NCBI GenBank assembly: GCA_028713325.1
Contig: JAQTON010000001.1
Span: forward strand, 385,454 to 449,453
Direction of reading: 5' to 3'
From: Candidatus Altimarinota bacterium
GTDB lineage: Bacteria; Patescibacteriota; Gracilibacteria; BD1-5; UBA2023
DNA length: 64,000 nt
Both the position numbers and the translations under genes were made by a program. The number at the start of each line of letters is the position of its first letter. The stretch's first letter is position 1. The notes under the pieces are model-generated. The model was given only the letters and a program-made list of their open reading frames with translations. It searched no databases and was not told the DNA's origin. Shown one piece after another: positions 33,540-37,305 of this stretch.

Positions 33540-33568
33540 TCATACAATATTTTTCTCTTCTTCTGTTT

Positions 33569-35296
33569 ATGAGCTCTCGTTTCAAACTCTTTTTCTCTCC
33601 CTACAAATACGCAAAAAAAGACCTCTTCTTTATGGTACTCAGAATCGCGGTATTTTCGTTTTTCGGAGGAGTGCTCATCAGTTTCCTTTTATCACGTTTT
33701 TCCGCATTGTTGTTGGAACGCGATGTACTGGCTTTCGAACGGCTCATATTCGGATTTATCGCTTCACTTGCGGTATTTTATCTCTTTGCTTTTCTCATAC
33801 GACATACGGGAAGTCCTAATATCCGTGCGAAAACATGGGAATTTATTCATCGACGATACATCACCATGGTATGCGAACTCGATAATAATTATGCGGAATC
33901 TCTCGGATCCTCCCGTATATTTTCGATAATCGACAAAGGGTGACAGGCTTGGAATACGGCTCTTACGAGCATATTTCAGGAATCCGCGAGAGTGCTCGTC
34001 ATCGGACTTCCGACCTGTTTTCTCCTTGCGAGACAATCTATGTCTATCATTCTTGTTTCATGAATCATTCTCATAATCGGAGCCATTGTTATCTATTTTC
34101 TCAACAAGCGTCTTCGTATATATAAATTGGAACGCGTTAAGGCGGTTATGGAATATGATCGAAAATTTATCCGCTCAATCCAGTCTCGGTTGGAAATCAC
34201 ACAAAATCTGAGCTTGGAACAAAACCTTCTCTCTCTCGACAAGAGCAATGAGGTCTATCGAAAAGCTTCTCAGAAACAGATGGGAATTCAGGTACTCATA
34301 TTTCAATGAGCTCGGGTTTTTTCTTTTCTCATCCTTATTTTTCTCTATTGGACACTCGGACATTCCTATCTTGCTGGCGGGATTTCATTGCCTCACCTCA
34401 TACTCCTCGCCTCTCTTGTGGGAACATTGTCCGGGCTTTTCAGCGATATAACGGAGCTCTATATGAATCTCTCAGACCAGATTGTCAGTATCGAACAGCT
34501 CTGGAATAAAATCGAAGATGCTCCGAAAACCAAGAATCTTTTTGCCGGAGATGTTTTTGAATATAAAAAATGAGCAATTTGCTTTCAGAATGTTGATTTC
34601 TTCTATGCTTCCAATACTCCGATTCTCGGAAAATTTTCGTATACGTTTGAAGCGGGGAAGAAGTATGCTTTGGTTGGACCATCAGGAGGGGGGAAGACGA
34701 CGATTATGAAGCTCGCATCCGGGTTTCTCTCTGCGAAAGGTGGGAAAGTTTCGGTCGATGGATTTGATCTCACGACCGTGAATCTCTCGACGTTTTACTC
34801 GAACATCGGGTACTTGACCCAAGATCCGCAGATTTTCGACGGGACGATCCGTGAGAACCTCATGCAGGGAAAAACTGCCAATGCTCAGGAATCGGACATC
34901 GTGGATGCACTCAAACAGGCTCATACAGACTTCGTATTCGATCTGCCGGAGTGACTCGAAACGGAGATTGGGGAACGGGGAGTGAAACTCTCCGGTGGAC
35001 AGAAACAGCGTCTCGCTATCGCGAAGATATTCCTCAAAAATCCCCACATTATCCTCCTCGACGAACCGACAAGTGCTCTCGATAGTTTTTCGGAAGAGAA
35101 AATCAGTCAGGCATTCCATAACCTCTTTGCATGACGCACGGTTCTCATTATCGCCCATCGTCTCCAGACAGTGAAAGAAGCGGATGTGATTCTCGTTCTC
35201 GAAGGCGGTCGTATCGCTGAAGAGTGAAATCATGCCGAACTCGTGGAGAAAGGTGGAATCTATGCGAAGATGTTGGAATTGCAGAGCGGGTTTTAA
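33569..35296 (+). CDS. ABC transporter, fused permease and ATPase (MsbA/exporter type)
   Basis: 575 residues with six UGA glycines, so read in the standard code it breaks into pieces. The N-terminal half has about six membrane segments. The ATPase half has [16 protein letters not shown] (Walker A), [16 protein letters not shown] (Q loop), [14 protein letters not shown] (signature), [12 protein letters not shown] (Walker B) and IIAHRLQTV (H loop). Such half-transporters work as homodimers and export lipids, peptides or drugs. It has its own start and no linked peptide gene, so the cargo is unknown. Confidence 0.9.
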
Positions 35297-35304
35297 AAAA
35301 CATT

Positions 35305-35472
35305 TAAAAAAAACCCAGGAGCAAAAAGCTCCTGGAAAAAGTGCAGTCATACGAGAGAATCGACACTGAACCGGAATTATGAAGAAGATTCACGCTGCCG
35401 GTCGGGCAAGTACCCCATAAAAAACCTCGAGCCCCACACGGGACTGTCAACGGCGGAAAGCTATGACTGCTT
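35305..35472 (-). ncRNA. Structured non-coding RNA of unknown class
   Basis: On the minus strand a promoter (TTTACA, 16 bases, TATAAA) places the transcription start at about 35470, exactly where a 9-bp closing stem begins (35462-35470 with 35343-35351). An inner helix GTTGACA/TGTCGAT contains G-U pairs that only exist on the minus strand, which favours this orientation. A CCGG/CCGG hairpin lies in the middle, and the transcript ends at CCAGGAGC-TTTTT-GCTCCTGG plus a T run (35305-35335). It carries no reading frame of note. I see no SRP, tmRNA, RNase P or 5S signature. 6S-like or reverse-transcriptase-associated roles are possible. Confidence 0.6.
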
Positions 35473-35476
35473 AGTA

Positions 35477-35504
35477 TTTATATATAAAAAACTTGATTTG
35501 TAAA
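35477..35504 (-). promoter_or_regulatory. Promoter of the minus-strand non-coding RNA
   Basis: On the minus strand TTTACA (35499-35504) and TATAAA (35477-35482) are 16 bases apart; the start would fall at about 35470, the first base of the closing stem. Confidence 0.6.
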
Positions 35505-35557
35505 TACTTTCTGTATACTTTCTGGAGAAATAGCTATTTTCTTTCATCGTATACACC

Positions 35558-37006
35558 TTGGAAAATCTCGAGAAAGCTTGTCCGGAAGACAAAAACGAAA
35601 AAAGACTATACCGAATCGGTGCAGAGCTTTTGTTGTCTTTGCAATTAATGGATTCGACTTTCTCGTGGACAAACCCGAAAATATACTTCGATTCCGACGA
35701 GATAGAAGGGCTTGCCAACGATTTGGAAGAAGCGGATAATATCCTTCGGAATTCTCCTGGGGGTGCGTATCGGGTGTTTGAAATTCCGAAAACAAACGGA
35801 ACTTTTCGGACTATCGAATCTCCGACCGGTACTGCTGTTATGAGGAAAGTACGAACTCCTGAGGGAGAAGAAAAAATAGAAAGTATCCTTGAAAAAGTCC
35901 AATCTTGAATCGGTCGAGCACTTCAGAGCGTTCCTTTCGGGGACTCCGCCATCTGTGCTTTTCGGAAAAAACACAGTGCGTATTCGGGACTTCGGTTTAT
36001 GACGGATCAGTTTCTCTGGCAGGAGGGAGTTTCATTTCGGGAGAAGAGCAATGCCGATTGGTCTCGGTGAGTTTTGAAAGTGAGATCTGCGAATATAGAA
36101 CGTTATCCAAAGAAATCGAGAATCATAGCGGGAGTATATCAGATCGATATCCGAAACTTCTTTCCTTCGGTTCTCTCGGAGTGGGGAGAGGAAACTTTGT
36201 TGAAGAAACTCGATTCTTTTCTCCAAAACCAGCAGAAAACGATTGATTCGAATGATTTGAAAAATGTTATTGCACTCATCATACGGCTTACAAGTTACGA
36301 AGGACGGCTTCCTCAGTGAGCTCCATCGAGTCCCATCCTCGCCAATATGGTCGCCAATGATCGGTTCGACCATAAAATACCCTCTCAACTCGGCTGGAAA
36401 GAACAGCGGGTGTATGGACGGTATGCGGACGATATCGTGCTCCTTTCCAATGTCCCCATCTCTCAGGAGATACGAGAAAGAGTCGATTCCATCGTGCAGG
36501 ATGCAGGATTCCAAGTTCACGAAGACAAACGAGAATACAGAGAAGGAGAATCAACCTACCCCATCTGGGGGACATCTCTCCTTGCGGAACGACGGGATGT
36601 GCTTGATCGTGGAGGATATAAGTCTCATACCTTCCGTATTCGTCCGCTCGTAGCAGACAGGATGGCTCAGGGGATTTTCTCTCTCATGGACCGGATAAAA
36701 TCCGAAGATATTGCGGATACGAAAGCGTTCCATGAAAATGCCGAAGTGAAGCGGATGCTCGGGCTTTTTTCCCACGCATTCAATGTCTCCCGATTCGGAG
36801 GGGAGTGGCAGGAATCGAAAAATATACACGAGTATCGGAGATATGCCCTTCCACGCCCCATGCTCTTTGCATGGGAGATGTGCAGGAAGAACTTCTGACA
36901 TTTCCTTTCCGAAACAGAAAAAGAAATTTCATTCACGGTCGCTCGTGGAGATCCTGTTTTCGATATTCGTCGTACGAATGCGATGACAACAAGAAGGAAA
37001 AGTTAG
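35558..37006 (+). CDS. Reverse transcriptase, retron-like
   Basis: 482 residues with four UGA glycines, ending TAG. The fingers region has FEIPKTNGTFRTIESP, the palm VYQIDIRNFFPSV (first catalytic Asp), LPQGAPSSPILANMV with UGA for the G after Q, and RVYGRYADDIVLLS (the YxDD box); PIWGTSLL sits where retron enzymes have the VTG motif. LPQGAPSSP plus RYADD is close to retron reverse transcriptases and unlike the SQ-type motif of diversity-generating enzymes. No maturase or HNH domain is present. Only TTG at 35558 opens the frame; ATG at 35648 is the next choice. A structured RNA lies 86 bases upstream on the other strand. Confidence 0.85.
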
Positions 37007-37077: not shown

Positions 37078-37305
37078 TTATCGTCCTCTGTTGGCGGCTC
37101 GTCCGGGACGTTGACGGTTGTTCATAGCACCTGCCTGTGATCCTCGGAACTGGTTTCCCATAGGAAATACTGGTCCAGATCGGGAAATAGGAGGTTTCGG
37201 AGGAAGGGGTTTTGGTTTCTCTTCCGCTGTATCGACTGCTTCAGAAAGTACTTCTACTTCTTTTGGAGTGAGGAGTTCTTCTTCTTTTTTAATAGGTTTT
37301 GGCAT
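37078..37305 (-). CDS. Small basic Pro/Arg-rich protein, unknown
   Basis: 75 residues without UGA. The N-terminal half is acidic (EEELLTPKEVEVLSEAVDTA), followed by KPKPLPPKPP and a basic tail (NNRQRPGRAANRGR). It is probably disordered, and the tail could bind nucleic acid. The gene ends just before the shared terminator. Its coding status rests on start-stop-terminator context alone. Confidence 0.5.
   Translation of the reverse strand: MPKPIKKEEELLTPKEVEVLSEAVDTAEEKPKPLPPKPPISRSGPVFPMGNQFRGSQAGAMNNRQRPGRAANRGR

Follow-up and report, generated by a model that had tools for sequence, protein, structure and literature searches.

Introduction

Descriptions of retrons give a single cassette with a single RNA. 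In the canonical order the RNA lies upstream of the reverse transcriptase (RT) gene on the same strand, and reverse transcription is primed by the G of a (T)AGC motif that is conserved at the inner end of the closing stem (PMC6868368). Here we analyse a stretch of 64,000 nucleotides (the window) from a Candidatus Altimarinota bacterium (contig JAQTON010000001.1), in which an RT gene and a structured RNA with a retron-like closing stem stand side by side on opposite strands. Our verdict is that the RT belongs to a rare clade whose RNA units are free-standing, of which the window pair is a member with divergent layout. The locus is probably a retron-like system for multicopy single-stranded DNA (msDNA), with its RNA forming an independent transcription unit that is here inverted with respect to the RT.

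The reverse transcriptase resembles retron enzymes

The RT gene (35558..37006, plus strand; 482 aa, TTG start) follows genetic code 25, in which the window genome reads TGA as glycine; its frame is unbroken only with this reading and is interrupted by four in-frame TGA codons under table 11. Given TGA as glycine, the motifs named in the first-pass annotation are all found, with LPQGAPSSP as motif B (residues 251–259), RYADD as motif C (residues 288–292) and YPIWGTSL (IWG) at the VTG position; motif A reads YQIDIRNFFPS. A Pfam scan returned RVT_1 only, with no fused effector domain and, as the annotation had held, no maturase/X domain. A group II intron was rejected on this RVT_1-only architecture, on a score of 42 of 300 bits with the group II profile TIGR04416 and on the lack of an Rfam match at gathering score.

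Three lines of comparison place the RT, as far as predicted sequence and modelled fold can tell, nearest to retron RTs, yet divergent from them. First, its top 25 matches among PADLOC profiles are all retron RTs (best RT_III-A, 6e-26), and the best NCBIfam profile is retron_St85_RT (6e-25, against 7e-11 for group II), with Drt2 and Drt3a well below it at 37–38 bits. Second, a sequence search of solved structures in the PDB led to the retrons Kva2, Ec86 and Ec67. Lastly, Foldseek with a low-confidence model of the RT found retrons Eco2 and Ec86 nearest; the AlphaFold models are too uncertain for reading the C-terminus.

The RNA has retron-like anatomy and favours the minus strand

Folding and an element scan delimit a structured RNA of 128 nt, a putative msr-msd, at 35343..35470 on the minus strand. 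Read 5' to 3', it runs from a1 (GCAGUCAUA), with UAGC innermost, through a hairpin and a second large hairpin to CG and a2 (UAUGACUGC). The a1 arm (35462..35470; GCAGTCATA) and the a2 arm (35343..35351; TATGACTGC) form a perfect 9-bp closing stem with pairing probabilities of 0.81–1.0, within the 8–30 nt range of retron arms. The UAGC (35460..35463), like the retron priming motif, sits at the inner end of a1 and would supply the branch G at 35461. Folding further predicts an msr-like hairpin at 35424..35454 and an msd-like hairpin, GACCGG...CCGGUU, at 35369..35403, and by analogy with Ec86 reverse transcription is predicted to start at the CG dinucleotide before a2 (35352..35353). A terminator scan placed an intrinsic terminator of nine pairs with a T8 tail directly behind the RNA (35314..35336, minus strand). 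The Ec86 arms, CCCTTAGC...GACGTAAGGG, are arranged like those of the window RNA; an Ec86 query matched 48 E. coli genomes at 100%, the RT lying 82 nt downstream.

The RNA folds with a z-score of -3.4. Defining a strict element by arms of at least 9 bp, GC and CG inside the arms and a terminator directly after, we found one in the window and none in 40 Markov sequences of 64 kb, both strands being scanned. An Rfam scan gave nothing at gathering score, only weak sub-threshold matches, and a DNA search of 27 family genomes recovered the RNA from its own genome and from none of the other 26.

The first-pass annotation had favoured the strand opposite to that of usual retrons on the basis of promoter, terminator and wobble pairs. 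The terminator and the G–U pairs (six on the minus strand, three on the plus) uphold this choice; for a promoter on the minus strand, a consensus scan gave no confirmation. Were this a conventional retron, its RNA on the plus strand and upstream of the RT in one operon, the canonical order would be restored (PMC6868368), and the plus strand is indeed also predicted to form the closing stem, with probabilities of 0.91–0.97 for eight of the nine pairs. However, the plus-strand arm is not followed by a priming AGC, the terminator and the additional G–U pairs suit the minus strand, and the minus-strand fold is better by 7.6 kcal/mol (-41.5 versus -33.9 kcal/mol). We therefore regard a conventional arrangement as highly improbable.

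RNA and RT share one variable slot

The RNA lies upstream of the RT at a distance of 87 nt, one more than the 86 bases annotated at first, while the a1/a2-like stem described there is present at 35470–35462 / 35351–35343. The intergenic space (35471..35557) is presumed to hold divergent promoters, which the consensus scan did not confirm. On the left lies an ABC transporter gene (33563..35296, plus strand) and on the right a conserved 75-aa gene (37078..37305, minus strand). The congener G194 keeps both flanks, the ABC protein at 85% identity and the 75-aa gene again on the far side, with alr between them; in G287 a glutamine-amidotransferase-like gene follows the ABC gene (both gene names are from our reading of the sequence). 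Because the flanks enclose alr in G194, and G287 differs again, the variable slot of the window, from 35297 to about 37078, consists of the RNA and the RT alone. Both are missing from six congeners, and the flanking ABC gene is 73–78% identical in DNA in congeners that do not have the RNA.

The classical single-strand cassette of msr-msd and RT is not found here, the RNA lying on the minus strand with its own terminator and the RT on the plus strand. As the single-cassette feature was tested and found absent, we call the locus a retron-like variant and not a classical retron.

A rare RT clade with free-standing RNAs

A profile built from four RTs and run on 353 genomes of the class defines a group of these four members: those of the window, G238, G029 (UBA4473) and G228 (Peribacteria nzgw389). 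Their own E-values are not independent evidence because they built the profile; beyond them, the next matches are ordinary retrons at 6e-28. The four form a single clade with support of 97/83 with an outgroup and 100/98 without long branches. Apart from ordinary retrons and other RTs, scans of genomes and viral contigs with the window RT gave just the two relatives already known, and phage and plasmid collections contained no close relative.

Separately, the class contains another group of RTs of about 480–580 aa (L010, L012, L013, L015 and L017) that match retron profiles, carry a long insertion after YxDD and form one clade with 100/100 support.

The position of the four-member clade bears on a further possibility, namely that the RT is of DRT/UG type and uses the neighbouring RNA for another product, such as repetitive cDNA, in place of branched msDNA. 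A tree with a UG-type outgroup sets the clade beside the UG-type rows and outside the sampled retrons, and a separate effector is missing, both as this alternative would have it. Yet the outgroup branches are long, so that the tree does not fix the exact position of the clade; UG/DRT profiles score the RT far below retron profiles; and UAGC and the a1/a2 arms are characteristic of retrons. We give this alternative little credence.

Relatives with arrays of RNAs

The most surprising part of the analysis is the RNA arrays of two relatives. The Peribacteria genome carries six tandem RNA units, one of them partly masked, upstream of the RT and on the RT strand (L082:2848-4267, minus strand). The UBA4473 genome carries four units after an RT–AAA+–vWA operon, at some 5 kb downstream from its RT (L081:3863-4853, minus strand). 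All unmasked units have a1-GC...CG-a2 arms and their own terminator. In every cell the closing stem and an inner hairpin are paired, and 7 of the 11 pairs show two-sided changes, a result that 0 of 500 shuffles reach. Within arrays the 5' halves are 90% identical in Peribacteria and 64% in UBA4473; the 3' halves, 35% and 34% identical, come close to the chance level given by shuffled sequence, 28% and 35%. A covariance model built on the 5' halves found these RNAs in two of the 353 genomes, precisely those with the array-type RT, and a search with array DNA gave no additional copies in its two host genomes.

The AAA+ gene adjoining the array-type RT likewise occurs in the same two genomes only. 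Beside it are proteins of 665 and 666 aa with a weak vWA match (L027:907-2904, minus strand; L198:2253-4253, plus strand). Their HExxH-like stretch, HEFGHH/HELGHH, resembles a metalloprotease site in our own reading of the motif. The pair has no clear name in PADLOC or NCBIfam; on sequence grounds the vWA protein and the AAA+ ATPase are a candidate effector pair. The window RNA and the array RNAs appear to be linked by architecture and RT kinship, with no detectable shared sequence.

A second divergent locus

G238 has, about 95 nt upstream of its RT and on the anti-RT strand, an RNA with a closing stem and a terminator, as in the window. Because 5 of 400 random regions (about 1%) match this element on one strand, and its RNA has no GC..CG motif, G238 lends moderate support to a divergent RT–RNA layout shared with the window.

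This second locus also bears on whether RNA and RT belong together at all. Were they two independent genes, the RNA would be some small RNA without relation to the RT, of 6S-like, antisense or regulatory kind, that lies beside it by chance, which would fit their opposite strands, the lack of sequence likeness to the array RNAs and the occurrence of the RNA as a single copy without relatives. Rfam, however, gives no match at gathering score; unlike a housekeeping RNA, this one is missing in congeners despite the 73–78% DNA identity of the ABC flank; the sole strict retron-type element of 64 kb sits 87 nt from the RT; and G238 repeats the divergent layout. Independent genes are in our view unlikely. 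Among the three options that the first-pass annotation had offered, the divergently encoded RT–RNA pair, as a novel layout, is best supported, by the joint absence in congeners, the single variable slot and the layout in G238. Neither an RNA without the RT in relatives nor a grouping of the RT with another class was found when looked for.

Proposed mechanism

In the retron-like system that we favour, the minus-strand RNA would be transcribed as its own unit, its a1 and a2 arms would pair, and transcription would end at its own terminator. The divergently encoded RT would bind this RNA and use the 2'-OH of the UAGC guanosine (35461) as primer. Copying would begin at the CG beside a2, turning the 3' half into RNA-linked single-stranded DNA, and the product, if retrons are a guide, would be part of a guarded complex responding to phage. 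In the two relatives with arrays, one RT would serve four to six RNAs that have their msr in common and differ in their msd, near AAA+ and vWA proteins.

Several observations weigh against this reading. The RT scores 88 bits where the curated NCBIfam cut-off of retron_St85_RT is 235, its fold model has a mean predicted local distance difference test score (pLDDT) of only 52, and the tree with the UG-type outgroup puts its clade outside 50 other sampled retron-type RTs and near the outgroup, on long branches. The window RNA stands alone in sequence, with no second relative; the array covariance model misses it (2.9 bits); and the consensus scan did not confirm its promoter. The GC..CG motif is missing from the G238 RNA. 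No effector gene was found beside the window RT, the slot holding RNA and RT only, and the window genome and G238 lack a homologue of the AAA+ gene. The window system may rely on a distant effector or on the RT's own extensions, or may serve another role. The original description as retron-like thus holds for profiles, priming motif and arms, and not in the classical sense, given the separate strands, the absence of an adjacent effector and a clade outside the 50 sampled retron RTs.

A wider proposal, on which we are evenly divided, is of a deep retron-like branch in candidate-phyla bacteria with free-standing RNAs, either inverted singles (window, G238) or arrays with a common msr and unrelated msd hairpins, the latter a repertoire of different decoys or sensors made of DNA and coupled to a pair of AAA+ and vWA effectors, possibly with a metalloprotease. 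If the divergent layout, and above all the arrays with constant 5' half and varying template half, are what they seem, one system could produce several different DNA hairpins. The implication is that the question of what msDNA senses would become testable by comparing natural templates, and multi-template DNA production could be offered as a tool. The locus is, besides, a further system from candidate-phyla bacteria, a group about whose phage defences little is known; its host is tiny and uncultured.

Comparison with known systems

An open-access literature search brought up no description of retron RNAs that are arrayed or encoded divergently from the RT, which is weak evidence as the main retron classification paper (PMC7736814) lay outside the search. 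DRT2/UG systems resemble the window locus in combining an RT with a neighbouring structured RNA, and differ in far lower profile scores for the window RT. Retron arms and priming motif are not known to be part of DRT2/UG RNAs.

The window genome holds a second, canonical retron (L029:5380-8540, minus strand; G000:C1 near 170 kb) with a TGA-coded RT and an OLD-type ATPase/TOPRIM nuclease. Like the window locus, it has closing-arm RNAs beside a TGA-coded RT that resembles retron enzymes. It differs in having two tandem RNAs upstream on the RT strand with 17-bp arms, an effector gene next to it and an RT of another clade.

With Ec86/St85-type and PADLOC III-A retrons the window locus shares the RT motifs, the best profile matches, the a1/a2 arms, the TAGC priming motif and the CG before a2. 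It differs from them in that its RNA, which has a terminator of its own, lies on the opposite strand, that its RT is larger, with IWG for VTG, an insertion preceding motif A and scores under curated cut-offs, and that no effector is adjacent. The UBA4473 and Peribacteria nzgw389 loci, which are unnamed and were found in the present analysis, share with the window the RT clade (about 31–36% identity) and a1-GC..CG-a2 RNAs each with a terminator, but array four to six RNAs on the RT strand, extend the RT C-terminus by about 110 aa and carry the AAA+ and vWA genes.
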